From NCBI RefSeq assembly GCF_024462775.1, contig NZ_JANGCE010000012.1, positions 23,099 to 87,098 of the forward strand: DNA of 64,000 bases. Direction: 5' to 3'. Below the pieces are notes generated by a model. That model did no database searches, was not told where the DNA came from, and saw only the letters and a program-made list of their open reading frames with translations. The position numbers were made by a program, and so were the translations under genes. The DNA comes from Butyricicoccus faecihominis (GTDB lineage: Bacteria > Bacillota > Clostridia > Oscillospirales > Butyricicoccaceae). Below are positions 1,698 through 56,513 of the stretch, piece after piece (within the stretch, counting starts at the first letter, position 1; every line of letters begins with the position of its first letter).

Positions 1698-2992
1698 GTA
1701 TGCAACTGATTCTGGTGCTGGTGATCCTGTTCGGCCTGCTCCTTGTCGGCTCGCCGGTGGTCATGGCGATCGGCACCGCCGCGATGAGCTACTTTGTGTT
1801 CAAGCCGGACATGCTGGGCAACCTGATGATGTACGCCCACCGGCTGTTCACCGGCATGGATAGCTTTATTTACATCTGCATTCCGCTGTTTATGCTCTCC
1901 GGCGAGCTGATGGGCCTGACCGGCCTGATGGACCGCGTGGTGGACTTTTGCCGCATCTTTGTCGGCCGCCTGCGCGGCGGCGTGGCGTATGTCAACGTGC
2001 TGGCCAGTATGCTGTTCGGCGGTATTTCGGGCTCCGCGCTGGCCGATATCGCCGCGCTTGGGCCGATTGAGATCTCCATGATGGAGGCGGACGGCTACGA
2101 GCGGGATTTTGCCGCCGCGCTGACCGCGACCTCCGCCATACAGGGGCCTGTGATCCCGCCGTCGATCCCGGCGGTCATGTTCGCCAGCCTGACGGCGGTT
2201 TCCGTGGGCGGCATGTTCATCGGCGGCGTGGTGCCCGGCATTATGCTGGGTCTGGGCCAAATCCTCGTGATCTTCTTTCTGGCGCGTAAGTTGCATTTTC
2301 CCAAGAGCGATGTCCGTTACAGTGCGAAAGAGGCGCTGCTTATCACGCTCAAATCCTTTTCCGCCATTTTTATGATCGTGATCGTGCTGGGCGGCATCAT
2401 TTCGGGCGTTTTCACCGCGACGGAAGCCTCGGCGATCTCGGTGGCCTACGTGCTGCTGCTCGATCTGCTGGTCTACCATAAGCTGAAGCCGCGCGATTTG
2501 TGGTCTTCCCTCAAAAACGCGGCGACCGGCTCGGCCTCGATCTTTCTGATCATCGGCTTTACCTCCATTATCAGCTGGATCTTGACCATGGAGAGCGTGC
2601 CGCTGATGATCAACAACTGGGTGGCCGCCGCCAATATTTCGCCCTATCTGCTGCTGTTTCTGGTCAACCTGTTTTTCCTGTTCAACGGCATGTGGATCTC
2701 GGATTCCGCGCAGCTCGTGCTCTTTGCGCCGATCTTTGCCCCGATCTTTCAGCAAATGGGCATTCATCCGATCCACTTTGGCGTAGTCATGGTCGTAAAC
2801 GTCATGATCGGCCTGATCACGCCGCCCTTTGGCGTGGGCCTGTACACCGCCGCCAGCGTCAGCGGCTGCGAGCTCAAGGATATCGTAAAGGCTTCGCTGC
2901 CGTTTACCGCGTCCTGCATCGTGGTACTCCTGCTGATCACCTACATCCCGAATCTTGTTTTGATGCTGCCGTGGCTGGCCGGGTATATTTGA
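1694..2992 (+). CDS. dctM: TRAP transporter large permease (DctM family)
   Basis: This 432-residue, strongly hydrophobic protein has many membrane spans and typical DctM motifs: the N-terminal LLVGSPVVMAIG, then MLFGGISGSALADIAALGPIEI and GLITPPFGVGLYTAASV near the C-terminus. It is the transport channel of the TRAP system. I chose the ATG at 1694 over an upstream in-frame codon at 1664 because it overlaps the DctQ stop (ATGA) and sits behind GGAGGTG. A perfect terminator hairpin follows immediately, so this gene ends the operon. Confidence 0.92.
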   Translation: MSMQLILVLVILFGLLLVGSPVVMAIGTAAMSYFVFKPDMLGNLMMYAHRLFTGMDSFIYICIPLFMLSGELMGLTGLMDRVVDFCRIFVGRLRGGVAYVNVLASMLFGGISGSALADIAALGPIEISMMEADGYERDFAAALTATSAIQGPVIPPSIPAVMFASLTAVSVGGMFIGGVVPGIMLGLGQILVIFFLARKLHFPKSDVRYSAKEALLITLKSFSAIFMIVIVLGGIISGVFTATEASAISVAYVLLLDLLVYHKLKPRDLWSSLKNAATGSASIFLIIGFTSIISWILTMESVPLMINNWVAAANISPYLLLFLVNLFFLFNGMWISDSAQLVLFAPIFAPIFQQMGIHPIHFGVVMVVNVMIGLITPPFGVGLYTAASVSGCELKDIVKASLPFTASCIVVLLLITYIPNLVLMLPWLAGYI

Positions 2993-3001
2993 TCCTTCTA
3001 C

Positions 3002-3040
3002 AAAAGGCTCCCTGTTTCTAAAACAGGGAGCCTTTTGCAG
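3002..3040 (+). terminator. Rho-independent terminator of the TRAP operon
   Basis: A perfect 16-bp inverted repeat (3002-3017 with 3021-3036) has a three-base CTA loop and ends in TTTT. It starts 10 bases after the DctM stop codon. Confidence 0.9.
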
Positions 3041-3181
3041 TTTTCAAATATTAATATGAATATATAGACAAATTCAAATGAATGGATCAAGTTAATGGAA
3101 AAAGAGCCATCGATTAATGGACAATATGCATAAAATAAAAGCAAAAACAATGAGATAATATACGAAAATGCGAGTGATGGG
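3041..3181. other. AT-rich intergenic stretch
   Basis: This non-coding stretch between the TRAP terminator and the next promoter is much more AT-rich than its surroundings. I see no ORF with a ribosome site and no clear RNA structure in it. Confidence 0.5.
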
Positions 3182-3210
3182 TTGACATAATTCATATTAT
3201 AAAATACTAT
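3182..3210 (+). promoter_or_regulatory. Sigma-70-type promoter of the isomerase/ABC operon
   Basis: A perfect -35 box TTGACA (3182-3187) and a TACTAT -10 box (3205-3210) are 17 bases apart, 47 bases before the IolE-like start codon. GGAGGA precedes that ATG. The LacI-type regulator encoded at the far end of the cluster is the natural candidate to act here, but I found no convincing operator palindrome. Confidence 0.75.
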
Positions 3211-3256
3211 ATAGGCACAACGTAACATTAATAAAATTTGAACGGAGGAATGTTTC

Positions 3257-4162
3257 ATGAAACCGCTATTTCAGAATGTCCGGTTCGGCGCGCACCCGAT
3301 CTGCTGGTGCAACGACGACATGCTCGACCTTGGCGACGAGTACTCCTTTGAAAACATCATCGACGAGGCGGCGGAAGCGGGCTATACCGGTATAGAGCTG
3401 GGCCGCAAATTCCCCAAGGAACCAAAGGCGCTCCGGCAGGCGCTGGACGCGCGCGGCCTGCAGTTGACTTCCGGCTGGTGCGATACCATGTTCGCCTGCG
3501 CCGAGCTGCGCGACAAGTATTTCGACATGTTCCGCGAAAAGGCGAAATTCCTGCGGGATTGCGGCTGCGACGTCGTCGTCGCGGCGGAGGGCACGGGCTC
3601 GCGCTGCTGGGACCCGCGCGAATACCGCGCCAAAAAGGGCGTGGAAAAGCTGGACGACGAACAGTGGAAGCTGTTTTTGGACGGCCTGAATGAAGCCGGG
3701 GATTTTGTAAACAGCCTTGGCATGAAGCTCGTCTACCATGTGCACACAGGCACCTGCTGCGAGACCTATGAGGAGACCCAGCGCCTCTGCGCCGGCACCG
3801 ACCCGGACAAGCTGCACCTGCTGGCCGATACCGGGCACCTGCACTACTGCGGGGTCGACCTTGCGCGGTTCTTCCATGATTTCGCGGACCGCATCGCCTA
3901 TGTGCACTTGAAGAACATCCGCGAGATCGTGCTCGACGTGGTGGAGGATTATGACATGGATTTCAATTCCTCGGTCAAATGCGGCATCTTCACCGTGCCG
4001 GGGGACGGCGGCATCGATTTTAGACCCATCATGCAGATCTTGGCGGACAAGGGGTACGAGGGCTGGATGATGGTGGAGGCGGAACAGTACCTGCCCAGCC
4101 CCAAGGCCCTGCACTTTATGAAAATGGCGCGCGCATACCTGCGCGAGATCACCGGCGTTTGA
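3257..4162 (+). CDS. Sugar phosphate isomerase/epimerase, IolE-like
   Basis: This 301-residue protein belongs to the xylose-isomerase-like TIM-barrel family. The opening GAHPICWCNDDM and the C-terminal VPGDGGIDFRPIMQ...YEGWMMVEAEQ closely resemble myo-inosose-2 dehydratase (IolE). Metal-ligand positions are visible as Glu46, the HVHTG histidines, DTGHLHYCG, HLK and the terminal VEAE. It is first in a catabolic operon with a PIG-L deacetylase, a sugar ABC transporter and a zinc dehydrogenase, so it probably isomerises, epimerises or dehydrates the imported polyol or sugar. No other inositol genes are present in the window, so I do not assign the IolE reaction firmly. Confidence 0.8.
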   Translation: MKPLFQNVRFGAHPICWCNDDMLDLGDEYSFENIIDEAAEAGYTGIELGRKFPKEPKALRQALDARGLQLTSGWCDTMFACAELRDKYFDMFREKAKFLRDCGCDVVVAAEGTGSRCWDPREYRAKKGVEKLDDEQWKLFLDGLNEAGDFVNSLGMKLVYHVHTGTCCETYEETQRLCAGTDPDKLHLLADTGHLHYCGVDLARFFHDFADRIAYVHLKNIREIVLDVVEDYDMDFNSSVKCGIFTVPGDGGIDFRPIMQILADKGYEGWMMVEAEQYLPSPKALHFMKMARAYLREITGV

Positions 4163-4197
4163 CGAAAACGGAACCGATAAAAAGGAGGCTGGAAAAA

Positions 4198-4881
4198 ATG
4201 AATGTACTGGCAATCGGCGCGCACCCGGATGATATCGACATTTACGCGGGCGGCACCATGCTGCGCTATGCGGAGCGCGGCGACACGGTAAAATTCTGCG
4301 TTGTGACGAGCGGCAACATCGGCCATTACGACTATGACCGCGCGGAGCTGGCCGCGAAGCGTAAGGCGGAGCAGCTGAACTCTGCGGCGGTCGCGGGCGC
4401 GGAGACCCTGTTTCTCGGCATGGACGAGCGCATCGTGGACGACAACCCGACGCGCGACGCGATCGTGAACGCGATCCGCTGGGCCGATCCCGATGTGATC
4501 TTCACGCATTGGCCCGACGATTCCAGCGTGGACCACCATGTGATCGGCACGATCGTAAAGCAGGCGCTGCTGTGCCTGAAATGGAAAAACCAGAAGACCG
4601 AGTACCCGCCAATCAGCAAGCTGCCCAAGGTGTTTTTCTGGGAGCCGAACGGCGGCTTCCACTACCAGCCCGAGCAATATGTCGACATCACGGATCAGAT
4701 GGAGCGCAAGCGCGCTATGCTGGCCTGTCACAAATCGCAGGTGGAGCTGGAACAGGACTATATGCACGCGATCGAGGCAATGGGCATGTACCGCGGCTTG
4801 CAGGCGGGCTATGCCTATGCGGAAGGGTTCAAGGCGCATCTCTCGTTTGAGAATCCGCCTGACTATAAGCTGCTGCCCTAG
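4198..4881 (+). CDS. PIG-L/LmbE family deacetylase
   Basis: This 227-residue protein carries the zinc-binding AHPDD motif at residues 8-12 and HWPDDSSVDHH around residue 105, the hallmarks of PIG-L/LmbE N-acetyl-sugar deacetylases. The ATG at 4198 is preferred because AAAGGAGG lies 8 bases upstream; a TTG at 4159 would overlap the previous gene. Its place between an IolE-like isomerase and a sugar importer suggests it removes an acyl group from an imported amino-sugar or glycoside. The substrate is unknown. Confidence 0.85.
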   Translation: MNVLAIGAHPDDIDIYAGGTMLRYAERGDTVKFCVVTSGNIGHYDYDRAELAAKRKAEQLNSAAVAGAETLFLGMDERIVDDNPTRDAIVNAIRWADPDVIFTHWPDDSSVDHHVIGTIVKQALLCLKWKNQKTEYPPISKLPKVFFWEPNGGFHYQPEQYVDITDQMERKRAMLACHKSQVELEQDYMHAIEAMGMYRGLQAGYAYAEGFKAHLSFENPPDYKLLP

Positions 4882-4942
4882 GGCGGCGCGCCGAACCGGG
4901 AAAGGAAAGAAACAAACCGCGTGATCGAAGGAGGGAACCCAC

Positions 4943-5941
4943 ATGAAAAAAAGACTATTGGCATTGGGACTGAGCTTGGGACTGATTCTGGCGTGCGCCG
5001 GCTGCGGAGGCGGCGACGGCGCGGGCGACGCGCCGCAGGGCGAACCGCAGGCCGACGCGCCTAAGGCTGCGGAAAAGCTGCTGCTCGGCGTATCGCTGCA
5101 AAACACGGGCGACGTGTTCGACCGTATCCTGTACGAAGGCATGATGGCGTACGGCGAGGAGCATAAGGACGAGATCGACCTACAGATTCTAAACGCCCAA
5201 GGCGACGTCAACACCCAGTTGACCAACGTCGATCAGCTGATCAACTCCAAGGTCAAGGCGCTGGTGCTGTGGCCGCGCGACGTGGACGCGCTCACGCCCG
5301 CGGTGGAGGCGGCGAACGCGGCCGGCATTCCGGTGGTCTGCGTCAACACCCGCACCAACGGCGGCGCGTATACCTATGTCGGCTCGAACGATGAGGAGGC
5401 CGGGCGCATTCAGGGCGAGTGGCTGGCCGAAAAGCTGCCGGAAAACGCGAAGTACTGCTATCTGATGGGGCCGATCGGCCATTCCGGACAGATCGGCCGG
5501 AAAAAGGGCATGCAGGCGGTTTTGGCAGAAAAACGCCCGGATATCGAGCTTTTGGCCGAACAGACCGCCGAGTGGGACCGCGCGAAAGCGATGAATATCA
5601 CGGACGACTGGCTCAAGAGCTTTCCCGAGGTGACCGCGATCGTCAGCCAAAACGACAACATGGCGCTCGGCGCGATCGAAGCCGTGCGCACGGCGGACAA
5701 GCTCGATTCCATCCTCGTCACCGGCACCGACGCGACCGAGGAAGCGTGCGCCAGCATCAAGGCGGGCGATCTGGCCATGTCGGTCTACCAGAACGCGCAC
5801 GATCAAGGCTATTTCAGCGCCGACGTTGCGCTGAAGCTCGCGCGGGGCGAATGGACGAAGGGCGATATGGATATTCCCTTTGAAGCGGTGGACGCGGAAA
5901 ACGTCGACCAGTACATTGTGCAGTATGAGGCCGCCGAGTAA
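4943..5941 (+). CDS. Sugar ABC transporter substrate-binding lipoprotein (RbsB-like)
   Basis: This 332-residue protein starts with a lipoprotein signal (lipobox ACAGC, Cys21), then a periplasmic-binding-protein fold of the ribose/galactose type. Visible features are GVSLQNTGDVF, VDQLINSKVKALVLWP, VVCVNTRTNGG and VSQNDNMALGAIEAV. It would capture a sugar outside the cell and deliver it to the ATPase and permease encoded next. GGAGGG precedes the ATG. Confidence 0.9.
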   Translation: MKKRLLALGLSLGLILACAGCGGGDGAGDAPQGEPQADAPKAAEKLLLGVSLQNTGDVFDRILYEGMMAYGEEHKDEIDLQILNAQGDVNTQLTNVDQLINSKVKALVLWPRDVDALTPAVEAANAAGIPVVCVNTRTNGGAYTYVGSNDEEAGRIQGEWLAEKLPENAKYCYLMGPIGHSGQIGRKKGMQAVLAEKRPDIELLAEQTAEWDRAKAMNITDDWLKSFPEVTAIVSQNDNMALGAIEAVRTADKLDSILVTGTDATEEACASIKAGDLAMSVYQNAHDQGYFSADVALKLARGEWTKGDMDIPFEAVDAENVDQYIVQYEAAE

Positions 5942-5992
5942 CGGCAGGTCCGGCGGCGCGCCATGGAGACGGCCTCGAATGGAGGGAACGGC

Positions 5993-7498
5993 ATGACCGA
6001 TCAAGCTGATGTGATACTCGAGCTGAAAAATATCGAAAAATCCTTTCCGGGCGTTCGCGTGCTCAAGCAGGTGTGCTTTACGCTGCGCAGGGGCACGGTG
6101 CACGCGATCGTCGGGGAAAACGGCGCGGGCAAATCGACGCTGATGAAGATTCTGAGCGGCATGTATCAGCCCGACGCCGGAGAGATCTGGCTGGAGGGCG
6201 AGCGGGTGCGCATCGCCAATGAAAGTCAGGGCATCGCGCGCGGCATTTCGATGATCTATCAGGAGCTCAATTCGGTGCTCGATATGACCGTGATGGAAAA
6301 CGTGTTTCTGGGGCGTGAGATCACGCGCTTGGGGCTGACCGACAAGGCCGAAATGCGCCGCCGGACGCGCGAGGCCCTCGCGGGGCTGGACATGGCCATC
6401 GACCCCGATACGATGATGCGCAGCCTTTCGGTGGCCAGCCGCCAGATGATCGAGATCGCCAAGGCGGTCTCGCGCGAAGCCAAGATCATCGTCATGGACG
6501 AGCCGACCTCCTCCATCTCGCAGCGCGAGGTGAGCGAGCTGTTCCGGCTGGTGCGGAAAATGAAGGCGCGCGGCATCTCCGTCATTTATATCTCGCACCG
6601 GTTGGAGGAACTGCCCGAGATCGCGGACGAGATCACGATCATCCGCGACGGCGCGTGCGTTTTTGGGGGCGCGGCGAACGCGGTGACGGAAGGCGAGATC
6701 ATCCGCCACATGGTCGGGCGCGAGCTGAACGACCTGTTCCCCAAGACCGAGGTGCCGATCGGCGAGGAGCTGCTTCGCGCCGAGAATTTTTCCAGCGCGG
6801 GCGTGTTCCGTCAAATCAGCTTTTCCGTGCGCCGCGGCGAGATACTCGGCTTTTCCGGGCTGATCGGCGCGGGCCGCACCGAGGTGATGCGCGCGATCTG
6901 CGGGCTGGACCCGTGCGATTCGGGCAGCGTGTTTCTGGCGGGCCGCCAAAAACGGATCAAAAACCCGACGGACGCGATCAAAAGCGGCATCGCCATGATC
7001 TCGGAGGACCGCCGCCGGTACGGTCTGGTGGTCATCCGCAGCATCCGCGAAAACATGATGCTCGCGCATATGAGGGCGTTTGCCGGCAAGCTGGGCCTGC
7101 TGAACAAGCATAGGGAGACCGGCGTGATCGGGGAGCAGATCGAGCGGCTGCACATCAAAACGAGCGATATCGAACTGCCCGCCTCGACCATGTCGGGCGG
7201 CAACCAGCAAAAGGTGGTGCTCGCCAAGTGGATGGTCCGGCCGCCGCAGGTGCTGATCATGGACGAACCGACCAAGGGCATCGACGTGGGCGCTAAGTAT
7301 GAGATCTACAAGCTGATGTGCGAGCTGGCCGGGGCGGGCATGGCGATCATCATGATCTCCTCCGAGCTGCCGGAAATTCTGGGCATGAGCGACCGCATCA
7401 TCGTCATGGCGGATGGAGAAAAGCGCGGCGAACTGACGCGGCGCGAGGCCACACAGGAAAAAATCATGGCTTTATCAGCGGGAGGGAGCAGGAAATGA
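5993..7498 (+). CDS. Sugar ABC transporter ATP-binding protein (RbsA/MglA type, two NBDs)
   Basis: This 501-residue protein contains two nucleotide-binding domains in tandem. The first has Walker A GENGAGKST and Walker B IIVMDEPTSS. The second has a degenerate P-loop GLIGAGRTE, signature SGGNQQK and Walker B VLIMDEPTKG. The degenerate second P-loop is normal for this family. The ATG at 5993 follows GGAGGG; an in-frame ATG at 5963 has a poorer site. Its stop overlaps the permease start (ATGA). Confidence 0.93.
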   Translation: MTDQADVILELKNIEKSFPGVRVLKQVCFTLRRGTVHAIVGENGAGKSTLMKILSGMYQPDAGEIWLEGERVRIANESQGIARGISMIYQELNSVLDMTVMENVFLGREITRLGLTDKAEMRRRTREALAGLDMAIDPDTMMRSLSVASRQMIEIAKAVSREAKIIVMDEPTSSISQREVSELFRLVRKMKARGISVIYISHRLEELPEIADEITIIRDGACVFGGAANAVTEGEIIRHMVGRELNDLFPKTEVPIGEELLRAENFSSAGVFRQISFSVRRGEILGFSGLIGAGRTEVMRAICGLDPCDSGSVFLAGRQKRIKNPTDAIKSGIAMISEDRRRYGLVVIRSIRENMMLAHMRAFAGKLGLLNKHRETGVIGEQIERLHIKTSDIELPASTMSGGNQQKVVLAKWMVRPPQVLIMDEPTKGIDVGAKYEIYKLMCELAGAGMAIIMISSELPEILGMSDRIIVMADGEKRGELTRREATQEKIMALSAGGSRK

Positions 7499-8469
7499 AA
7501 GCGAAACTCGGTGGTTTGAATTTCGGGCAGATGTTCCGAAAATGCGGTATTTACGTGATTCTGGCGCTGTTTATCATCATCAGCACCATCCTGCGGCCCG
7601 ATGTGTTCCTGACCAAAGCAAACCTGATCTCTATTTTGGTGCAGATCTCCATGACCACGATCTTGGCTTGCGGCGAATGCGCGCTGATCTTGGCCGGCAG
7701 CGTCGATCTGTCGGCGGGCTCGCTGGTCGCGCTCACCGGCACGGTCATGGTGGGCATGTATGAAAGCACGGGCAGCATTCTGGCCGGCCTTGCGGCGGCG
7801 CTGGTCATCGGCGCGGCGATCGGTCTGGTCAACGGTTTTATCATCACCCGGTTCGCGCTGCCCGCCTTTATCGTCACGCTGGGCACGCAGATCCTCTCGC
7901 GCGGCCTTGCGCTGGTCTACGCCAACGGCATGCCGATCCCGGTCACGGGCAGCTCGTTCCGCGTGCTGGGGCAGGGCAAGCTGTTCGGCCAGATCCCGTA
8001 CCCCATTTTAGTGTGCATCGCGGTGGTTCTCTTTTCGCTGGTGCTGGTCAACCGCACGGCCTATGGCCGCTCGCTCTACGCCATCGGCGGCAATGAGGAA
8101 GCCGCCAAGGCCTCGGGCATTAAAACCGCGCGCGTGCTCACGGTGGCGCACGTTTTCATGGGCCTGCTCGCGGCGATTACCGGCTATATCCTGATGAGCC
8201 GCACCAACGTCGGCCAGCCGTCCGCCGCGCTCAACTATGAGTTCGACGCGATCATCGGCGTGATTCTGGGCGGCACCAGCTTTTCCGGCGGCATCGGCAC
8301 GGTCGGCGGGGCCGTGGTCGGCTGCGTGGTGATGGGCGTGCTCGCCAACATCATGAACCTGATCAATATCTCGCCCAACTGGCAGTATGTGGTCAAAGGC
8401 ATCATCATTCTGTTCGCCGTGGTGCTCGATGCGACGACCAAAAAGCTGAGCCTTCGCGCCAAAGCCTGA
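7495..8469 (+). CDS. Sugar ABC transporter permease (RbsC-like)
   Basis: This 324-residue membrane protein has multiple spans and the RbsC-type motifs CALILAGSVDLSAGS, GLVNGFIITRFALPAFIVTLG, YAIGGNEEAAKASGI and the late GGTSFSGGIGTVGG. It forms the channel for the sugar importer. The ATG overlaps the ATPase stop and is preceded by GGAGGGAGCAGGA. Confidence 0.92.
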   Translation: MKAKLGGLNFGQMFRKCGIYVILALFIIISTILRPDVFLTKANLISILVQISMTTILACGECALILAGSVDLSAGSLVALTGTVMVGMYESTGSILAGLAAALVIGAAIGLVNGFIITRFALPAFIVTLGTQILSRGLALVYANGMPIPVTGSSFRVLGQGKLFGQIPYPILVCIAVVLFSLVLVNRTAYGRSLYAIGGNEEAAKASGIKTARVLTVAHVFMGLLAAITGYILMSRTNVGQPSAALNYEFDAIIGVILGGTSFSGGIGTVGGAVVGCVVMGVLANIMNLINISPNWQYVVKGIIILFAVVLDATTKKLSLRAKA

Positions 8470-8490
8470 TTTTCCAAAGGAGTGTAAGCA

Positions 8491-9543
8491 ATGAAAATGA
8501 AAGCGGTATATATGCACGGCCCGATGGACCTGCGGATCGGGGAGCGCGAGCTCGAACCGCTCCGCGAAAACGAGGTGCGCATCAAAATCGCGCGGTGCGG
8601 CATCTGCGGTTCCGATCTGGGCTGTTACAGCGGCAAAAGCAGCGAAGGGCGGTACGATATCGCGCCGTATATCCCGGGCCACGAATACGCGGGCACGGTG
8701 GTGGAGACCGGCCCCGCCGTGCGCGACCTTGCGGTGGGCGACCGCGTGACCGGCGATTGCAGCATGGGCTGCAACGCGTGCGAAAACTGCAAAAACGGCA
8801 AAATGCCCTCCGCCTGCCTGCACGGGGACGAGGTCGGCTTTCGGCCCTATACGCCGGGCGCCATGGCCGAATACCTGACGCTGAAGGAAGGCAACGTGCA
8901 TCGCCTGCCACCTGATTGGCCGTTTGAAATGGGTGCGTGGGTGGAAACCTTCTGCGTGGGTTATTTCAGCATTTGGGGCGGCAACGGCCATTTGGACGCC
9001 GCGGAGGATGTGCTGATTATCGGCGCGGGCTCGATCGGCCTGTGCGCCGCCATGACGGCCAAGGCTTCGGGCGCGCATGTGATCGCGGCCGATCCGCTCG
9101 CCTTCCGCCGCGACGTCATCCTGCGCTACGGCGCGGATGAAGCGCTCGACCCGACCGCGCCCGACTTCGCCGAACAGCTTAAAGGGCTGACGGGCGGCAC
9201 GGGCCCCAGCTATGTGGTGGAAGCCTCCGGCACGCCCGCCGGCGCGGAAAACGCGGTAAAGCTGGCGGCGGACGGCGCGCGGGTGCGGCTGGTCGGCATG
9301 TGCGAGCGGGATATCACCATCAAGCCCACCGATCTGATCTTTAAAAACCTGAGCGTCAGCGGCTTTAACGGCACCAAAAACGCCATGGTGCGCACGATCA
9401 AGTTCATGGACCGTATCCGGGACAGCTATGATTTCGCGGCGCTCAATACCAGCTTCTATCCCTATGAGCAGGCCAAGGCGGCGTTTGATTACGCCCTGCA
9501 AAACGCGGGGAGCGAGATCAAGGTGATGCTCACGTTCGACTAG
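8491..9543 (+). CDS. Zinc-dependent medium-chain dehydrogenase (polyol/sorbitol dehydrogenase-like)
   Basis: This 350-residue MDR-family enzyme has the catalytic-zinc motif CGICGSDLG, the GHEYAGTVVETG block, a structural-zinc cysteine cluster (CSMGCNACENCKNGKMPSAC, residues about 90-109) and a nucleotide-binding GAGSIG. Such enzymes oxidise a secondary alcohol of a polyol or sugar with NAD(P). It ends the catabolic operon, 21 bases after the permease and behind AAAGGAG. The exact substrate is not recognisable. Confidence 0.88.
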   Translation: MKMKAVYMHGPMDLRIGERELEPLRENEVRIKIARCGICGSDLGCYSGKSSEGRYDIAPYIPGHEYAGTVVETGPAVRDLAVGDRVTGDCSMGCNACENCKNGKMPSACLHGDEVGFRPYTPGAMAEYLTLKEGNVHRLPPDWPFEMGAWVETFCVGYFSIWGGNGHLDAAEDVLIIGAGSIGLCAAMTAKASGAHVIAADPLAFRRDVILRYGADEALDPTAPDFAEQLKGLTGGTGPSYVVEASGTPAGAENAVKLAADGARVRLVGMCERDITIKPTDLIFKNLSVSGFNGTKNAMVRTIKFMDRIRDSYDFAALNTSFYPYEQAKAAFDYALQNAGSEIKVMLTFD

Positions 9544-23278: not shown

Positions 23279-23307
23279 TTTACATGCGGGTTATAAAAAG
23301 ATATAAT
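23279..23307 (+). promoter_or_regulatory. Promoter of the cobalamin operon
   Basis: TTTACA (23279-23284) and a consensus TATAAT (23302-23307) are separated by 17 bases, just before the cobalamin riboswitch, so the transcript would begin at or near its 5' side. Confidence 0.75.
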
Positions 23308-23313
23308 AAAAAG

Positions 23314-23485
23314 CGATCGGGAAGCTTCCGCCACTTTGTGGACGGAAGAGGAAGTCGGGTGAGAATCCCGCGCAGTCCCGCTGCCGTATTAGGCGAGCCC
23401 TCGCACAAAATGCCACTGGGGTGCTTTGCACCTTGGGAAGGCGTGCGCCGGGCGATGACCCTTGAGCCGGAATACGATCCGATCG
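23314..23485 (+). promoter_or_regulatory. Cobalamin (B12) riboswitch
   Basis: A 7-bp closing stem (23314-23320 with 23479-23485) encloses the expected conserved blocks in order: the GGAAGTCGGGTGAGAATCCC region, GCAGTCCCGCTGCC, TGCCACTGGG with GGGAAGGC, and the B12-box-like GAGCCGGAATAC at 23464-23475. Adenosylcobalamin-class aptamers of this kind shut down synthesis and transport genes when the cofactor is plentiful. It precedes cbiM. The expression platform is not obvious: a GCGCTC/GAGCGC hairpin (23563-23577) lies near a T-run at 23587. Confidence 0.9.
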
Positions 23486-23529
23486 ATAGGTTTTCACACT
23501 CTACGGAAGATAGGGGGGTGTCATTTTTT

Positions 23530-44056: not shown

Positions 44057-45352
44057 TGTATAGCCCACATGGTATACAATATGTCCAAGCACATGGTATA
44101 CAGTTTATGTGGCCCAATAAATGTGCTTAGAAGTAATTATACTCTCGCTGAGATTGATGGAAGCCACACGGAAGGAGCCATAGTGGAGGTCAACAGAATT
44201 CTCCCCCGAATCCGTAAGTTGGAGGTAGGTTCCAGCGAAAGCCTCAGAGAGATAGTAGCGATGCCTGCAAATGCTAACGTAGCCCTTGTAGTTGACTCTT
44301 CTAAGCCTAGCTCCATCAGGATAATCAGGTTCCGGAGGCTGCTGAAGGAACGGCCTGCTGCTGACTTTATAGTGCTTGGCAGGGACATCAAGGGCAAGCG
44401 CGGTGTGGGGACGTTCGTAGTTGTACTCATACTGCCAGTCGTCAAATGCCCGTTGCGCATCACATAAGTTAAGCATTGTGCGGTGCCTAAGCAATTCTTC
44501 CTTCAACGTACGGTGAAAACGTTCCTCCTTGCCTTGGGTCTGCGGGTGCATGGGGCGGCCATGGATCGGCCGGATGTTCAGACGCATCATCCACACATCG
44601 AACATGGTGATACCCCCCTTGCTGTCGCCCCAGAGCTTCCCATTATCGCACAACAGTTCATGCGGTAGACCGTACATCTCGAAAACTTGGACAAGGGCAG
44701 GATAAAACCTTTCGTAGGACAATGAGTCCTCAGCCTTTAGGCACAGAGAAAACCGGGAGTGGTCATCCAAAATCGTCAGTGGATAGCACCGCTGCCCATT
44801 GAGCATCGTAAAGTCGCCTTTGTAGTCCATTTGCCACAAATCGTTGGGGCATTCTCTGGCAAAGCGATTAATGGGCTTGTGTTTCTGGCTGATTTCCGGT
44901 TCGATTCGCTCGTTTCGCTTAAGAATATTGCCGATTGTGCTTTTACATGGCAGTTCTGTGTAACCTTTATTTTGCAAATATCGCTCCAGCTTTCTGGGCC
45001 CCCACGCCGGATGTTCATCCCGCGCGGACAATATCAGTTCTTGCGTTGCTGCCGATGTCTGGGTTCTTTGATGCGTCGGTGCCCGACCGCGGTCGGTCAG
45101 TTCCTCTCCAGCCTGAAACCTTCGTAACCACTTATAACCTGTTTTTCGTGTGATTTCGTGTTTTCTACATAGAGCGCTAAAACTTATCTCTCGTTGCTGC
45201 GCCTCCCTTACAAACGTTTCTCGTTCTGACTTTACTGTTTTCTCTTTCCACGGCATAAGCAATTCTCCTTTTCCCACTTATACCGTTATTTTACTCCTAA
45301 ACTGTATACCATGTGCTTGGACAAACTGTTTACTATGTGACTGGGCTATACA
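44057..45352. mobile_element. IS481-type insertion sequence (1296 bp)
   Basis: The ends are inverted: TGTATAGCCCA on the left (44057-44067) and its complement on the right (45342-45352), with a second imperfect inner block that contains GTCCAAGCACATGGTATAC near each end. A four-base direct repeat GCCC flanks it (44053-44056 and 45353-45356). The interrupted sequence can be rebuilt from the uninterrupted copy at 20.6 kb. It carries one intact transposase gene, so it may be active. Confidence 0.85.
44105..45256 (-). CDS. IS481-family transposase
   Basis: This 383-residue DDE transposase has an N-terminal helix-turn-helix (ISFSALCRKHEITRKTGYKWLRRF) and a catalytic core with Asp in WQMDYKGDF, Asp in LLCDNG and Glu in QGKEERFHRTLKEEL. 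The family-typical YNYERPHTAL follows. The ATG at 45256 has GGAGAA 7 bases upstream and gives the start MPWKEKTV; the longer frame start at 45277 is less likely. It appears intact. It is transcribed against the cobalamin operon. Confidence 0.92.
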   Translation of the reverse strand: MPWKEKTVKSERETFVREAQQREISFSALCRKHEITRKTGYKWLRRFQAGEELTDRGRAPTHQRTQTSAATQELILSARDEHPAWGPRKLERYLQNKGYTELPCKSTIGNILKRNERIEPEISQKHKPINRFARECPNDLWQMDYKGDFTMLNGQRCYPLTILDDHSRFSLCLKAEDSLSYERFYPALVQVFEMYGLPHELLCDNGKLWGDSKGGITMFDVWMMRLNIRPIHGRPMHPQTQGKEERFHRTLKEELLRHRTMLNLCDAQRAFDDWQYEYNYERPHTALALDVPAKHYKVSSRPFLQQPPEPDYPDGARLRRVNYKGYVSICRHRYYLSEAFAGTYLQLTDSGENSVDLHYGSFRVASINLSESIITSKHIYWAT

Positions 45353-49597: not shown

Positions 49598-49735
49598 GAA
49601 CGAAGCGCCCACGCCCGCGTCCCGGAATATTTCGACAAAAGCCGCGTAAAAATCCAAAAATACACTTGATTACTCCTTAAAAGAATGATAAACTTTTTTT
49701 AACAAGAAAAGGGTTCGTTAAAAACTGAAACCGTG
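49598..49735. promoter_or_regulatory. Region between cbiK and the c-di-GMP riboswitch
   Basis: A weak promoter candidate TTGATT (49666-49671)/TAAACT (49689-49694) with 17-base spacing lies before the riboswitch. Otherwise nothing is recognisable. Confidence 0.4.
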
Positions 49736-49823
49736 AATAGTAAAACCGGGGAAATCCGGCGACACAAAGCTACAGGGCCTACCCTCCCTTTTGGGGAGCA
49801 CGGCTGCCAGCTGCCGCACAAAC
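49736..49823 (+). promoter_or_regulatory. Cyclic di-GMP-I (GEMM-I) riboswitch
   Basis: The conserved GEMM-I core is visible in order: AAAACC, a GGGGAAATCC tetraloop stem, CGACACAAAGCTACAGGGCC with following TA, a variable CCCTCC...GGGGAG hairpin, then CGGCTGCCAGCTGCCG. This matches the aptamer that binds cyclic di-GMP in many Clostridia. The 5' pairing strand of P1 is weak. It lies about 90 bases before the M60 peptidase start with an intrinsic terminator between them, so c-di-GMP should control whether the gene is transcribed. Confidence 0.88.
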
Positions 49824-49835
49824 AGGCGTCCCATG

Positions 49836-49874
49836 GGGCTGTTTTCTGTCATTGTGCAGAAAGCAGCCCTTTTT
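49836..49874 (+). terminator. Terminator in the riboswitch expression platform
   Basis: A 13-bp stem (49836-49848 with 49857-49869, one G-T pair) with an eight-base loop is followed by TTTTT. It lies between the c-di-GMP aptamer and the ribosome site of the metallopeptidase gene. Whether ligand binding favours or prevents it cannot be read with certainty. Confidence 0.85.
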
Positions 49875-49915
49875 GCAACCTATTAAGCGGGAGAAAGAGA
49901 GATGGAGTGAGAGAG

Positions 49916-52900
49916 ATGAAGGTACAAAAGCGATTTTTATCCGTTCTTTTGGCGGGCGCCATGCTCGTATCGCCGGTTCTGCCGGCGGCAAGGGCTGTGG
50001 ACGAGCCGGCAAGGCGCGGCGAAACGGGTGTTCGAGGCGGCATCAGCGCGACGCTGCGGCTGGATTATGCCCAGAAGCTGGATGAGATCAAAGAGCGAAA
50101 CGTCAGCGTCACCCTGATGAAAACGCAGGGCGGCAAAGTAACGGAAACGCTGGGCACCGTCGCGCTGGGGGACGGCGCGCGGACAGGGGCGCTCGACGCG
50201 GTTGTTTCCGCCCGCAATGCCGACGGCGGCGAGCTGGGCGGCGGCGAATGGCCCGGCTATCTGGACGTGTCCTTCGGCGATCTGCCGCGGGGAACATACA
50301 GCCTGCGCTTTTCCGGCACGGGGTATACGACCCATGAGCAGCCGGTCGATATGGATACTTACGCGCAGTCCGTCGTGCTCGGCACCGGCGACGGCACCTT
50401 TGGCCTTGGCGATGTGAACGGCGACGATAAGGTGGACGGCGCGGATTGGGACGAGCTGTCCGGCGCGCTGGGCGCCGTGGAAGAGGAGCAAATCCGGCAG
50501 TATGATCTGAACGGCGACGGCAAGATCGATATCATCGACCTTGCCTATATCAGCCGCCAGAGCCACGCCGAGGGCGAAGCCGAAACCTATAACACCGTGC
50601 TGCTCGCGCCGCCCGTGCAAGCGGAGGCGTTAAAAAACGAACTGGAACAAACGCTTGTTATAACGGGCGACGTTGCAAACCTGTTTCAGGAAAATACCGA
50701 ACCGGTCAAGCTGACCCCTAAGGAGGACGGCAAGCTCGCCATCCCGATCGAGCTGGACAAGCCTGTTGATATGGAGGTGATCGAGATCGCGACGCCCGAA
50801 CAGGACGGCGCGATACAAAAGGGCACCGTCATCGTCGAGGATAAGCAGGGAACAAAGACCGAATATCCCTTTGACAACACCCTGCCCGAGGGCGTGCACG
50901 CCATTGGCCGGTCGGCCGGGAGCAACGTGGTCACGATCAACCTTGGCGGTAAGGTGGCGGTTAAGAAGGTCACGATCTCGGTCACGCAGACCGCAAGCGG
51001 CAACTACGCCGTGGTCGATACCATCCGCTTTTTGCAGGATATCGTGCCGGAAAACCCCGTCGCGCCGAACAGCGTGGTCAAAACCGTGACCGCCGCGGAG
51101 GGGGACGCGCAGGTCACCCTGAAATGGGGCGAGCTGCCCAATGTAACGGGCTATAAGGTGCTGTGCAGCCTCAAGGAGGGCGGCGAGCCCAAGGAGCTGC
51201 ATGTGGACGTGCCCACCGCCGTGGTAACGGGGCTTAAAAACCTGCAAACCTACGCGTTTACCGTCACCCCCACAAATGGAGAGTGGGAGGGCAAGCCGTC
51301 TCAGGTCGTCGAAGCCACGCCGCAGCCCGCCAAAGCGCCGGACGCGCCCGACATGGTCAGCGTGCAGGCGCTCGACGGCGCGCTGAACGTTACATGGGGC
51401 AAATCCAAGAACGCGACCGCGTACGAGGTCTATTATACGGATAAACAAAATGCTTCGGTAAAGGATTATGTCCGCGCGGGCGGCGCGCTCTCCGCAACCC
51501 ATACGTCTGTTACCGGGCTAACGAACGATACGACGTATTATCTCTACGTCGTGGCCGTGAACGATGCCGGAAAAAGCGCTCCCTCCAAGATCGTGTCCGG
51601 CACGCCGGCGGCGGTCAAGTACGGCGAACCCGCGGGCCTGCCCACGCAGCTGACCCGTATCACGCGCGATCAGGTGCAAAGCATCGCGTTGAAGGATACC
51701 GGCAACGTCAGCACATCCAAGAGCACCAAACCCTTTACGACGGATTATCTGATGGATGGGGATTATCAAACCAACTGGACCTCGCAGTCTTGGGGCGACG
51801 GCAACTATACCCGCAGCAAGCAGCTCATTTACACCTTCAAAGACCCGGTGGATCTAAGCTATGTGATCTATGTGCCCCGGGCAGACGGCTATGAGAACTG
51901 CATGCGCCTGTACGGCGTAACGGTCTGGGACGAGGGCGACGACCTTGCCGGGCCGGGTACCGTGCTGGTTACGATGAACGGCAAAAACCAAACGCCGGTA
52001 AACGGTAAAATGGGCTCCGCGAAGGACGGCTACTTCGTCGCGCTGCCGTTCCCCGCGACCAAGGGCATCAAAAAGCTGGCCGTTGATATCGAGCAGACGG
52101 GGTACGGCGCGGTCGGCCTGTCTGAGGTCCTCTTCTTTGCGTACGATGAAACCAAGGATCTGGACAAGCAGATCGACGGCCTGTTTGAAGATCAGGCCCA
52201 TACCAAGCTGCGCGCGGACGTGACGGCGCAGCAGATCAGCGATCTTTCCGCGGCGCTTGCCGGGGACGAGGGCTACTATCTCTATCCGAATACCATGAAG
52301 GACGAGCTGAAGCTGGCGCAGGAGCTGCTCGCCGGCCAGAGCGCGGGCGTGGTGCTGCGCGGCGTCACGGCGCGCAGCAGCAGCGCGGATTCTGCGAAGT
52401 ACGGGCAGGGCGGCAGCGATCTGCAGCCGCTGGGCGCGGCGGCAAAGGCCGGGCAGGAGATCACGGTCTATGCCGAGGGCATTCCAGCGGGCGAAAGCGT
52501 CGCCCTGTGGGCAACGCAGTTCCACGCCGAGGCCGCCGCATGGCAGGCCAAGGTGGGCGAGCTGCAAAATGGGCGCAATGTGCTCACGGTGCCGCAGATC
52601 GGCAGCCAGACCACGCCGCGCGGCGGCAGCCTGTACTTTACCTATCATGGCGCGAACGGCGGGCAGATCACGCTGCACACGCGCCGGGCGACCGACGTGC
52701 CTGTTTTGGAGCTGGGCGACTGGTATACGCTGGACGAAGCCGGGCGCAAGGCGGTGCTCACGGCTTATATACAGGAGCTTACCGCGTACACCAAGACGAT
52801 CGCCGCGAACGGCAAGCAAAACAACTGCCTGAACGTGACCGAGCTTTCCCTCCCCACGGTGCTGCTTTCCCTGCCCGCCACGGCCGTGATGGATAATACC

Positions 52901-54835
52901 GCGAAGGGCGGCGCGGAAGAACAGGTGCGGATCCTGTACGACAATGTGCTTGCGTGGGAACAGCTGATGCATATCGCCAAGACGACGCAGGGCATCGACA
53001 ATACCTATGAAAAGAATGATATGACCTCCCGCCAGAATATCCGCTATATGCAGATGTTCGCAGGCGCGTTCATGTATGCCGCGGGCAGCCATGTGGGCGT
53101 GGAGTACGGCTCGTGCGGCGGGCTGGTATGCGGCAAGCCCGTGGACGATGCGACGGCAGAGAAAAACAAGCTGTTCGGCTGGGGCGTTGCCCATGAGATC
53201 GGCCATAATATGGACAAGCTGGGCAAGGCCGAATGCACGAACAATATCTACTCGCTCATGGTGCAGACCTTCGACGGTAAGGATAATACCCTGCCCTCCC
53301 GCTTGGAGGGCGGCAAGTACCCGCAGATCTTCACCAAGGTTGCGGAAGGCTACCCCGGCGCGTCGGGCGACGTCTTTGTGCAGCTCGGCATGTATTGGCA
53401 GCTGCATCTGGCCTATGACAATGGACAAAACGATGCAAACGGCCCCATGGATTTCTACAACCGCTTCTTCAAGAGTTGGAAAGCGGGAACGTACTTCGGC
53501 GATGCAACAAGCTACGACGACAAGGTGGCGCTGACCGCCGCCGGAACCGCAAACAAAGACCTGACCGAGTTCTTCACCCGCTGGGGCATGCAGCTAAGCG
53601 AAAGCACGAAAACCAAGCTTAAGGACTATGAAAAGGAGCCGCGCGCCATCTGGTATCTGGACGACAACAGCCGCCGCGACCGTTTAAACAGCGTGCCGCA
53701 GGGCGCCGGCAGCATTATTGCCACGGCGAAAAAAGAGGGCGATCATCAGGTGGTTCTCTCCATGCGCGCCGATATGACAGCGGGTAAGGTACGGGGCTAT
53801 GAGATTCGGCGAAACGATACCGTGATCGGCTTTACGACTGAAACCACCTTTACCGATGTGATCGGTTCGGCCAACCACATGAACTTTGCCTACACCGTGC
53901 AGGCCTACGATTCGCTGGGCAACGCCATTGGCGACGCGGTGCATGCGGGGGATATCCGCGTGGCCTACGATAAAACGCTGCGCGCCGATCAGTACACGAT
54001 CGACCGCGACGTAGACACCGTGACGGTCACCCTGACCAATGGGCCAACCGCCGTGTCCGGCGTCAAGCTGGTCAGCGAAAAGGCGCTCCCGCAAACCGGC
54101 GGCTACACCGTTACCGTGACAACGGAGCACGGCGATGTGGTGGCAAAGCAGGGGGATTACGGCAAGAATGAAGCGGTGGACGATGCGGACAGCTACCTTG
54201 CCTACTTTAACAAGCCCGGTACGGACTCCGCGGACAGCCGCATCTGGACGTATGATGCGACGAAGGTCGTCATGACGAATGTGCCGGAAAACGCGGCCGT
54301 ACAGCTCATCAGCTACGCCGGGGACGACGTGGCCTTTACCGAGGGCGGCGCGGCAGGTATCCTCAGCGCGGATTATGTATACGGCACGGAAACGGATGAC
54401 GTGATCAAAGCGGGCACGCTTGTGATCACCGGCACCTATCGCGGCGACCCTGTTTACAACACCCTGCGCGTTAAGGGCGAATTTACCGACAGCGCGCTGG
54501 ATGCGAACGGGGAACCGCAAGAGAAAACCACTCTTCGCTATCTGGACGGTTACGCGCTCTTCTTCGCGGAGATACCAGAGGATAAGGAAGTAAGCGATAT
54601 CAGCGACGGCGTCTTTATTTTCGTACCCAATGTGCAGCGGGAAGCGGAACTGCAAGGCGGGCAGTCGCACTGCGAGGGCGGCAGCCTGCTGCCCAGCCGC
54701 ATGATGGCGGAGCTGAGCCGCACGGACGATCCAAATAGCGCGGAAAACCAGTACCTAACGGCCAGCACTAGCTGGATCAGCGCGCCCGGCGGGGATAACC
54801 TGCCCACCATAGAACTGAAGGGGGCGATGGAATAA
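49916..54835 (+). CDS. Secreted M60-family metallopeptidase with dockerin-like, FN3 and F5/8C-like modules
   Basis: This 1639-residue protein has a Sec signal (residues 1-28, ...PVLPAARA). Next come a dockerin-like pair of calcium loops at about 161-215 (GDVNGDDKVDGADW and DLNGDGKIDIIDLAY), two fibronectin-III-like modules at about 388-570, an F5/8C-like carbohydrate-binding region at about 575-745, and an M60 domain at about 840-1235 with the zinc site VAHEIGHN (His1093) and downstream Glu in AECTNNIYS. M60 enzymes cleave mucins and other O-glycoproteins. The real start is the ATG at 49916, after the riboswitch; an upstream in-frame GTG would run through the aptamer. Its stop overlaps the SLH gene. 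Confidence 0.88.
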   Translation: MKVQKRFLSVLLAGAMLVSPVLPAARAVDEPARRGETGVRGGISATLRLDYAQKLDEIKERNVSVTLMKTQGGKVTETLGTVALGDGARTGALDAVVSARNADGGELGGGEWPGYLDVSFGDLPRGTYSLRFSGTGYTTHEQPVDMDTYAQSVVLGTGDGTFGLGDVNGDDKVDGADWDELSGALGAVEEEQIRQYDLNGDGKIDIIDLAYISRQSHAEGEAETYNTVLLAPPVQAEALKNELEQTLVITGDVANLFQENTEPVKLTPKEDGKLAIPIELDKPVDMEVIEIATPEQDGAIQKGTVIVEDKQGTKTEYPFDNTLPEGVHAIGRSAGSNVVTINLGGKVAVKKVTISVTQTASGNYAVVDTIRFLQDIVPENPVAPNSVVKTVTAAEGDAQVTLKWGELPNVTGYKVLCSLKEGGEPKELHVDVPTAVVTGLKNLQTYAFTVTPTNGEWEGKPSQVVEATPQPAKAPDAPDMVSVQALDGALNVTWGKSKNATAYEVYYTDKQNASVKDYVRAGGALSATHTSVTGLTNDTTYYLYVVAVNDAGKSAPSKIVSGTPAAVKYGEPAGLPTQLTRITRDQVQSIALKDTGNVSTSKSTKPFTTDYLMDGDYQTNWTSQSWGDGNYTRSKQLIYTFKDPVDLSYVIYVPRADGYENCMRLYGVTVWDEGDDLAGPGTVLVTMNGKNQTPVNGKMGSAKDGYFVALPFPATKGIKKLAVDIEQTGYGAVGLSEVLFFAYDETKDLDKQIDGLFEDQAHTKLRADVTAQQISDLSAALAGDEGYYLYPNTMKDELKLAQELLAGQSAGVVLRGVTARSSSADSAKYGQGGSDLQPLGAAAKAGQEITVYAEGIPAGESVALWATQFHAEAAAWQAKVGELQNGRNVLTVPQIGSQTTPRGGSLYFTYHGANGGQITLHTRRATDVPVLELGDWYTLDEAGRKAVLTAYIQELTAYTKTIAANGKQNNCLNVTELSLPTVLLSLPATAVMDNTAKGGAEEQVRILYDNVLAWEQLMHIAKTTQGIDNTYEKNDMTSRQNIRYMQMFAGAFMYAAGSHVGVEYGSCGGLVCGKPVDDATAEKNKLFGWGVAHEIGHNMDKLGKAECTNNIYSLMVQTFDGKDNTLPSRLEGGKYPQIFTKVAEGYPGASGDVFVQLGMYWQLHLAYDNGQNDANGPMDFYNRFFKSWKAGTYFGDATSYDDKVALTAAGTANKDLTEFFTRWGMQLSESTKTKLKDYEKEPRAIWYLDDNSRRDRLNSVPQGAGSIIATAKKEGDHQVVLSMRADMTAGKVRGYEIRRNDTVIGFTTETTFTDVIGSANHMNFAYTVQAYDSLGNAIGDAVHAGDIRVAYDKTLRADQYTIDRDVDTVTVTLTNGPTAVSGVKLVSEKALPQTGGYTVTVTTEHGDVVAKQGDYGKNEAVDDADSYLAYFNKPGTDSADSRIWTYDATKVVMTNVPENAAVQLISYAGDDVAFTEGGAAGILSADYVYGTETDDVIKAGTLVITGTYRGDPVYNTLRVKGEFTDSALDANGEPQEKTTLRYLDGYALFFAEIPEDKEVSDISDGVFIFVPNVQREAELQGGQSHCEGGSLLPSRMMAELSRTDDPNSAENQYLTASTSWISAPGGDNLPTIELKGAME

Positions 54836-56451
54836 TGCGGAAACGGATTCTTTGCGCGCTGACCGCGTTGCTTCTTGTCTGCCCCCTGATGACGCACCCG
54901 GCCCTTGCGGCCGGGGCGCAGGGCGCGCTTACGCTGGCCTGTGCCCGCGAGGACGATGGGATCGTTCTTTTCGTGGACGGGCTGGATGGCAAAACCAATA
55001 TCTATGCCGTGCAGCTCGATCTTACGCTGGACGGGCTGCACCCGGACGCCAGACTGATACCGGCCAGCGCGGATGTGCAGACCCCGGAAAAGAGCGCTAT
55101 AACGGAAAATGGCAAAACACACCTGACCGTCTATCTCGATTCGCAGGTGCCAATAAACGAGGGGAAAACGCTGCCCCTCGGTACGCTGACCGCGTCAGAC
55201 AGCGTGCCGCTGCCTGAAAAGGCGGAGCTGATTTTACTGGATCTATCGCTGCGAAAGGTCGCGTTTGCCGGCGCGCCCGCGGTCAGTTTGCCCGGCGGGG
55301 AGGATTCCGGCAACACCGGCGGCGACAGCGGCAGCACCGGCGGTGATTCGGGCAACACAGGAGGTGACAGCGGCAACACCGGCGGCGGCAGTACCGGCGG
55401 CGCGGGCGGTGGCGGCGGTTCGTCGGGCGGCGGAGGCGGCGCGGGCAGCGCCGCCGAAACAGCCGGTAGCAACGAAACCGTTTCCGCCGGTTCGCAGGGG
55501 CAGGCGATCCTGACCCAAAAACAGCTCGAAAAAGTAAAGACATTGACCGTACAAAGCGGGGAAGCCTCTGTTTTCCTGCCGGAGAGCGCGGTCAAGGCGC
55601 TGCGGCAGGCGGGGACGGACGTGACGCTGACCCTCACTGCCGACGGTGCGGAGGGGCAGAGCAAAACCACACGGGCGCAAACCGGCGGCGCGCCGGTATA
55701 TGTCTTTTCCAACGAGGCGGGGGGCAAGTATGTTGCGCTCGGCGGCGGCGTACAGCTCACCGCGCCGTTTGCTGGGAAGGGAACGCCCGTGGCCTATTCG
55801 CTCGGCGCGAACGGGAACCTGTCCCGGATGGGCGCGCTGACCGCGCAAAACGGCAGCGTGACGCTGGAACTGCCATCCGCCACAGCGGTGGCTGTTCTGG
55901 ATATCCGGCACCGCTTTGCCGACGTCGGCGGCTGGTACGAGGGGTATGTCAACACAATGGCGGCCAAGGGCGTCATGTCCGGTCTGGACGAGAAAACCTT
56001 CGCGCCCCAAAAGAATATGACGCGGGCCGAGCTGGTCACCACGCTGGCGCGTATCAGCGGGGGCAGCCTGCCGGAAGGCGCGGCTGCGGGCTTTGCGGAT
56101 GTACCGGCGAACGCTTGGTACGCCCCCTATGTGGCGTGGGCGCATGAAAACGGCGTGGCGAACGGCATGACCGCAACCACGTTTGCGCCCGGCGGCGCGC
56201 TCACCCGTGAGCAGCTCGCGGTCATGCTGGTGCGTTTTGCCGGTATGCAGGGAACAACGCTTTCGCAGGAGCAGCAGGCGGCGGAATTTGCGGATGCCGC
56301 CACAGTATCCGGCTACGCGGCGGAAGCGGTGCGGCTGATGCAGCGTTCGGGCATCATCAGCGGCCGGGGCGATGGACGCTTTGACCCCAAGGGCACGGCC
56401 ACCCGCGCCGAATGCGCGAAAATGCTTGCGGTCCTGATGGAAGAGCTCTGA
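54835..56451 (+). CDS. Secreted SLH-domain surface protein
   Basis: This 538-residue protein has a Sec signal ending near ALAAGA, an N-terminal beta-rich domain (about 30-150), a Gly/Ser/Thr-rich linker of GGDSGNT repeats (about 158-205), a middle domain, and three S-layer homology repeats from about 360 to the end (FADVGGWYEGYVNTMAAKGV, FADVPANAWYAPYVAWAHEN, YAAEAVRLMQRSGIISG). SLH domains bind pyruvylated wall polymers. The N-terminal domain (YAVQLDLTLDGLHPDARL) could be cohesin-like. Its ATG begins at the last base of the peptidase stop, so both are made together. Confidence 0.85.
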   Translation: MRKRILCALTALLLVCPLMTHPALAAGAQGALTLACAREDDGIVLFVDGLDGKTNIYAVQLDLTLDGLHPDARLIPASADVQTPEKSAITENGKTHLTVYLDSQVPINEGKTLPLGTLTASDSVPLPEKAELILLDLSLRKVAFAGAPAVSLPGGEDSGNTGGDSGSTGGDSGNTGGDSGNTGGGSTGGAGGGGGSSGGGGGAGSAAETAGSNETVSAGSQGQAILTQKQLEKVKTLTVQSGEASVFLPESAVKALRQAGTDVTLTLTADGAEGQSKTTRAQTGGAPVYVFSNEAGGKYVALGGGVQLTAPFAGKGTPVAYSLGANGNLSRMGALTAQNGSVTLELPSATAVAVLDIRHRFADVGGWYEGYVNTMAAKGVMSGLDEKTFAPQKNMTRAELVTTLARISGGSLPEGAAAGFADVPANAWYAPYVAWAHENGVANGMTATTFAPGGALTREQLAVMLVRFAGMQGTTLSQEQQAAEFADAATVSGYAAEAVRLMQRSGIISGRGDGRFDPKGTATRAECAKMLAVLMEEL

Positions 56452-56457
56452 TCAAAT

Positions 56458-56508
56458 AAAACAGCGGAGGAAAAACGCCGGTTCACGGTGTTTTTCCTCC
56501 GCTGTTTT
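56458..56508. terminator. Terminator after the SLH gene
   Basis: A long perfect stem (16 bp, 56461-56476 with 56490-56505, extendable by A/T pairs) ends in a T-run. It lies between the SLH gene and the convergent PHP gene and may serve both. Confidence 0.9.
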
Positions 56509-56513
56509 TCGTT

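Follow-up and report, generated by a model that had tools for sequence, protein, structure and literature searches.

A c-di-GMP-I riboswitch aptamer and a terminator-like hairpin precede a dockerin-bearing M60 peptidase gene and an SLH gene with a predicted cohesin fold in Butyricicoccus faecihominis

Results

The riboswitch leader

The stretch of DNA analysed here, referred to as the window, comprises 64,000 nucleotides of Butyricicoccus faecihominis (contig NZ_JANGCE010000012.1, positions 23,099 to 87,098). On its forward strand it carries a class I cyclic di-GMP (c-di-GMP-I, or GEMM-I) riboswitch aptamer, a terminator-like hairpin and a unit of two genes, one for a dockerin-bearing M60 metallopeptidase and one for a partner protein with SLH domains and a predicted cohesin fold. 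The aptamer spans 49729..49818, downstream of an open reading frame (ORF) that stops at 49597. Using cmscan at the gathering threshold, it was assigned to Rfam RF01051 with 61.6 bits (cut-off 35, E 1.2e-9), and the match covers the full model from 1 to 87. Our own covariance model, R1, built from 24 aptamers of the bacterial family and including both aptamers of the window's genome, gave it 74 bits, a score in which the window sequence is itself one of the 24 members. In the alignment of these aptamers C13 and G36 occur at 90% or more; the window has U13 and A36 in their place, so that the pair is kept through a double change. G004, the other genome of the species, has an aptamer that differs by one base and an identical terminator-like hairpin. 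The aptamer would be expected to bind c-di-GMP.

Between the aptamer and the likely ribosome-binding site of the first gene lies an intrinsic-terminator-like hairpin followed by a T-run (49835..49874). The hairpin (49835-49869) plus TTTTT has a fold energy of -24.9 kcal/mol (z -5.25), with none of 200 shuffles equally stable, and its stem of 14-15 bp runs directly into the TTTTT; simulated 64-kb strands (n = 100) contain on average 0.03 such sites. Another terminator-like hairpin with a T-run (56462..56509, hairpin 56462-56504), identified by the generic terminator scan and by the stem and T-run test, closes the two-gene unit. An earlier annotation made from the letters alone (the sequence-only reading) had described a GEMM-I core with an intrinsic terminator downstream. 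Both elements are borne out, the core by the Rfam covariance check suggested there and the terminator-like hairpin by its z-score and its 14-bp stem running into TTTTT, and the coordinates given there were correct to within a few bases.

The M60 peptidase and its dockerin

The first gene of the unit (49916..54835) encodes an M60 metallopeptidase of 1639 amino acids (aa), which scores 64 bits against a cut-off of 25.8 with Pfam PF13402 and is the sole match to this family in the genome. Its N-terminus resembles a signal peptide by eye, and it also carries two fn3 domains and an F5/8C match under the cut-off. ATG 49916 is preferred as the start codon because GGAG, a likely ribosome-binding site (49904..49907), lies 8 bases upstream; the mechanical ORF from GTG 49733 (1700 aa) was rejected as a start, as it would cross the aptamer and terminator. 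The catalytic domain (52955..53587), placed by Pfam and by ortholog alignment, contains the HEIGH motif (residues 1093-1097) and E1106, which we take to be the third metal-site ligand. H1093, E1094, H1097 and E1106 are invariant in 12 aligned orthologs. The closest solved chain is 7jfs (E 1.8e-36), with 6xsz also among the closest. These closest chains belong to M60 proteins, of which several carry the name glycopeptidase, so that the description of the enzyme as "mucin-type" in the sequence-only reading stands as a statement of homology; mucin or other O-glycoproteins would be candidate substrates.

Residues 164-214 of the M60 protein (50405..50557) form a type I dockerin, the genome's single dockerin match (PF00404, 34 bits against a cut-off of 22.9). 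The same family was matched at E<=0.01 in 10 of the 12 aligned orthologs. Each of the two calcium loops has Asp at positions 1 and 12, and all four positions are Asp in every one of 63 aligned dockerins; these are the window's own and 62 of the 79 segments from the public relatives described below.

The SLH partner

The TAA of the M60 gene (54833-54835) and the ATG of the next gene (54835) overlap by one base (TAATG). This second gene (54835..56451) encodes a 538-aa protein, recognised as the partner by three SLH domains and by the recurrence of the gene pair in relatives. The SLH domains (55912..56430; PF00395, 120 bits, in three stretches) would serve as a wall anchor, judging by their family, and residues 366-532 match the S-layer protein Sap in the PDB. 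The pyruvyl-transferase family includes CsaB, an enzyme needed for SLH anchoring, and the genome has one match to this family. The N-terminal domain (54910..55290, residues 26-152) is predicted to adopt a cohesin fold: the modelled structure has the nine-stranded cohesin sandwich, and the top 22 structural matches by Z comprise 20 named cohesins and two cellulosome scaffold complexes. The sequence-only reading had noted the M60 gene, the SLH gene and their overlap, all of which were recovered here, and its suggestion of a likely surface-anchoring partner gains evidence from the enzyme's dockerin and the SLH protein's predicted cohesin fold.

The genome, which is 96.87% complete, contains one cohesin-like domain found by profile, one dockerin match and one Pfam cohesin match, which is not the inventory of a multi-enzyme cellulosome or mucinolysome. 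The Pfam cohesin (33.9 bits in the genome search and 26.9 in the whole-protein scan, cut-off 24.1) is part of a 2041-aa SLH protein encoded elsewhere (L007 5267-11392, minus strand), together with two phosphoesterase domains, lectin-like domains and FIVAR.

Conservation of the gene pair

M60 orthologs were found in 15 of the 87 genomes of the family. A profile of the cohesin-like domain matched 14 of the 87, every one of them M60-bearing and with the match adjoining M60, and none of the 72 genomes that lack M60 (Fisher p 2.8e-15, with kinship ignored). The only M60 genome lacking such a match (G028) has its M60 gene as a contig-end fragment.

This analysis was extended to public relatives, taken as the best 80 of at least 239, six of which are also in the family set (L086, L106, L114, L132, L138 and L140); the hidden Markov models scanned over these loci were built from family members. 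At the M60 locus, the pairs L038/L086 and L043/L140 each have a 300-base stretch in common. A dockerin segment is present in 79 of the 80, the exception being a 735-aa truncated ORF. The cohesin-like/SLH gene follows M60 in 74 of the 80, and contig ends account for the other six: in L117 the cohesin-like part runs to the contig end, and in five other loci the contig stops before the partner. Taking mechanical starts, 69 of the 74 downstream genes begin at -170 to +35 relative to the M60 stop, and the others at -591, 60, 82, 126 and 486. L047 and L048 had been considered as cases of M60 without a partner and were rejected, since longer sequence revealed the partner in both.

c-di-GMP-I riboswitches elsewhere in the genome and family

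A genome-wide search gave 24 GGDEF and 10 EAL matches, yet just two c-di-GMP-I aptamers, and both are followed by loci for SLH proteins. The second (L003 8708-8792, minus strand) precedes the gene for a 2187-aa SLH protein (2016-8579, minus strand), with a GCAGC/GCTGC hairpin and a T-run in between.

In a sister species (G012), the locus L160 782-19730 has a c-di-GMP-I aptamer of 62.7 bits followed by four ORFs on the same strand. These encode a protein with CotH and a dockerin (23.7 bits, cut-off 22.9), one with fn3 and a dockerin (31.6 bits), an SLH protein whose N-terminal domain is unassigned, and a further protein with a sub-threshold dockerin (22.0 against 22.9) and a Peptidase_MA_2 match well under the cut-off (18.9 against 32.4). 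A stretch of the SLH protein (L160 13676-14164) looks cohesin-like by eye alone; hhalign with the set A3, made up of the window domain and 71 of 75 related domains (L070, L082, L084 and L097 excluded), and a PDB sequence search gave no match for it. The local fold between the aptamer and the first ORF has a 12-bp hairpin followed by UUUU (-19.3 kcal/mol), and the whole-leader fold pairs that hairpin arm differently. Taking the window and L160 together, an aptamer with dockerin and SLH genes therefore recurs in the genus, likely Agathobaculum, in company with unrelated genes.

The survey of the family listed at least 48 c-di-GMP-I matches, 46 of them above the cut-off; the region downstream was inspected for 28 loci, one of which has no ORF. 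From 22 chosen downstream ORFs, 18 were scanned with Pfam (the L032 gene was scanned within L160, and L010, L012 and L033 were excluded). Seven of the 18 have no Pfam family, and the rest include flagellar, prepilin-peptidase, MucBP and SLH proteins. The survey also turned up tandem, close-set pairs of c-di-GMP-I aptamers (G022:C21, G065:C4, G065:C93, G081:C17, G074:C35, G055:C105, G055:C28, G055:C220 and G085:C90). At L118, an aptamer on the minus strand (5264-5353) lies divergent from the M60 gene, before a 1051-aa adhesin-like ORF whose C-terminus is LPXTG-like by eye.

Other features of the window are a cobalamin riboswitch (23301-23497, 80.6 bits) and an integrase/transposase-like ORF (44105-45277, minus strand) upstream of cobalamin-biosynthesis-like ORFs, the likenesses being judged by eye.

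Discussion

A model for c-di-GMP control of surface display

We lean slightly towards a model in which the c-di-GMP-I aptamer and the terminator-like hairpin control the M60-dockerin/SLH-cohesin-like unit, with c-di-GMP likely turning surface display off. Bound c-di-GMP would make the aptamer more stable and promote formation of the terminator, and the M60 enzyme and its SLH partner would be lowered together. When the two proteins are made, the M60 dockerin would plug into the cohesin-like domain of its neighbour, and the SLH domains would hold the docked complex on the wall, where the enzyme could cut mucin-type glycoproteins close to the cell. Low c-di-GMP would leave the cell wearing the protease and able to cut mucus for foraging or leaving; in the sessile state, with c-di-GMP high, the protease would not be worn. 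The interpretation offered in the sequence-only reading is borne out in part, and the predicted docking extends it.

Several observations weigh against this model, some bearing on the switch and others on the docking, and the alternatives that they invite can overlap, so that the probabilities attached to them need not add to one. Among 15 family loci from 14 genomes, with the fragmentary G048 locus excluded, only this species, in both of its genomes, has a riboswitch 5' of M60, and no sense-strand c-di-GMP-I aptamer was found before M60 in the 80 public loci, nine of which have fewer than 700 bases upstream. The M60/SLH pair is old and the riboswitch local; the switch is not conserved along with the pair. 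The site at 49835-49874 is missing from the output of the generic terminator scan, probably because the maximal stem extends into the T-run, and the whole-leader fold is just mildly unusual (z -1.36). An antiterminator was sought by growing-transcript folds and base-pair probabilities without a clear candidate, and the idea that GCACAA pairs with UUGUGC of the terminator loop as an antiterminator was dropped as unsupported. In the growing transcript, the 5' arm of the terminator is paired upstream with a mean probability of about 0.5-0.7 before the 3' arm emerges, a pairing that is neutral as to the state of the switch, and the computed folds do not settle its direction. The same parts could thus form an "on" switch, in which c-di-GMP blocks termination and the docked protease is made for foraging in the sessile, mucus-attached state. 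We consider this rather unlikely. A terminator directly 3' of the aptamer, as predicted here, is the usual layout of "off" switches. Furthermore, reporter tests in C. difficile are reported to show every class I c-di-GMP switch, the one of zmpI included, as "off"; for the one gene that increased behind a switch of this kind, the explanation given is its promoter (PMC6200980). With the folds undecisive, it is by analogy with these switches that c-di-GMP would likely turn the docked-protease unit off.

The cohesin assignment meets difficulties at the level of sequence. PF00963 (cohesin) has no match in the window's partner at E<=1 or in 13 aligned members at E<=0.5, and hhalign of the N-terminal domain against cohesin gave a probability of 0.3, which is no sequence-level evidence for a cohesin. 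The coevolution test was also unsupportive overall: over 73 cohesin/dockerin pairs, the dockerin was outscored by 248 of 303 M60 slices by mutual information and by 25 of 303 by partial mirror-tree; slices from the SLH part of the partner itself came out slightly below the dockerin. Additionally, the genome holds one further cohesin-bearing SLH protein, the 2041-aa phosphatase. With a neighbouring domain that is unrecognisable by sequence and finds no favour in the coevolution test, the M60 dockerin might instead bind the cohesin of the phosphatase, a recognised Pfam member on a protein with SLH domains, and the adjacent SLH protein might serve another role; we regard this as quite improbable, since 14 of the 15 family genomes with M60 also have the adjacent cohesin-like domain and the search of the remaining 72 gave no match. 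The lack of a cohesin match and of a coevolution signal would also suit a neighbour whose N-terminal beta-sandwich has some other function, such as carbohydrate binding, with the dockerin as a calcium-stabilised spacer and the two genes merely co-expressed. Sandwich folds draw many moderate structural matches, which lends this explanation some further weight, and we judge it to be improbable as well.

Should the preferred model of a dockerin docked on its neighbour under c-di-GMP control hold, it would be a second messenger that settles whether a gut commensal displays a docked, likely mucin-cutting protease, and the connection of mucus use with lifestyle control by c-di-GMP becomes directly testable. 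The proposed minimal docking module, one enzyme and one anchor, is present in many related genomes, and sequence annotation misses it because the predicted socket goes unrecognised as a cohesin. In a broader form, which we entertain without quite expecting it to hold, c-di-GMP would directly gate cohesin-dockerin surface assembly, Agathobaculum riboswitches would have been placed independently before two unrelated dockerin/SLH sets, and the M60 dock would represent a cohesin family that has diverged beyond the reach of the sequence models applied and is conserved across many Oscillospirales-type genomes.

Comparison with known systems

SLH-anchored scaffoldins of cellulosomes, such as OlpA and SdbA, combine SLH domains with a cohesin as a surface dock. 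Unlike these, the window has no multi-enzyme scaffoldin, and its partner is cohesin-like by predicted fold only. The M60 glycopeptidases ZmpB/ZmpC and the mucinases of the BT4244 type share the Peptidase_M60 domain and HExxH with the window's enzyme, to which a putative docking partner and a riboswitch are added here; M60 mucinases are treated in PMC9325726.

Like the arrangement proposed here, the mucinolysome of Limousia is a gut-bacterial cohesin-dockerin system for mucin breakdown, with dockerin-bearing peptidases. It has 3-6 scaffoldins with as many as 12 cohesins, and numerous dockerin enzymes (PMC12997984), whereas the genome of the window has one dockerin enzyme and one partner with a single cohesin-like domain. 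A word search of the main text of that paper found M60, SLH and c-di-GMP all absent. In the single-cohesin (X82) and dockerin system of C. perfringens, all five cohesins are on proteins with glycoside-hydrolase domains (PMC12997984); in the window, by contrast, the cohesin-like module is on an SLH protein with no recognised catalytic domain and the dockerin is on an M60 peptidase.

The RNA class and the protein domains are known, and the docking pair and its wiring were not seen described in the open-licence PMC literature: the titles and abstract openings searched there, with most subscription papers outside, held no c-di-GMP riboswitch on a cohesin-dockerin system and no M60 with an SLH cohesin. 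Riboswitch-linked dockerins exist as a design idea (PMC12484212), and c-di-GMP has been connected with cellulose breakdown in Fibrobacter, without cohesins or dockerins (PMC6851124). The nearest published idea that we found concerns xyl-doc of Clostridium papyrosolvens, where a terminating leader, the 5' untranslated region, precedes genes for dockerin enzymes and was speculated to be a riboswitch (PMC5815224). The sensing proposed there is of oligosaccharides, with c-di-GMP unmentioned in that paper, and the enzymes are cellulosomal hemicellulases, whereas the window encodes what would be a surface-docked protease.

A regulatory parallel, correctly drawn in the sequence-only reading, is Cdi-1-12/zmpI of C. 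difficile, in which an aptamer of the same class also stands before a zinc metalloprotease gene and acts as an "off" switch; the protease cleaves the bacterium's own c-di-GMP-induced surface proteins (PMC6200980). Unlike zmpI, the enzyme of the window is an M60 peptidase with fn3 domains and a dockerin, and its gene shares a unit with that of a cohesin-like SLH protein.
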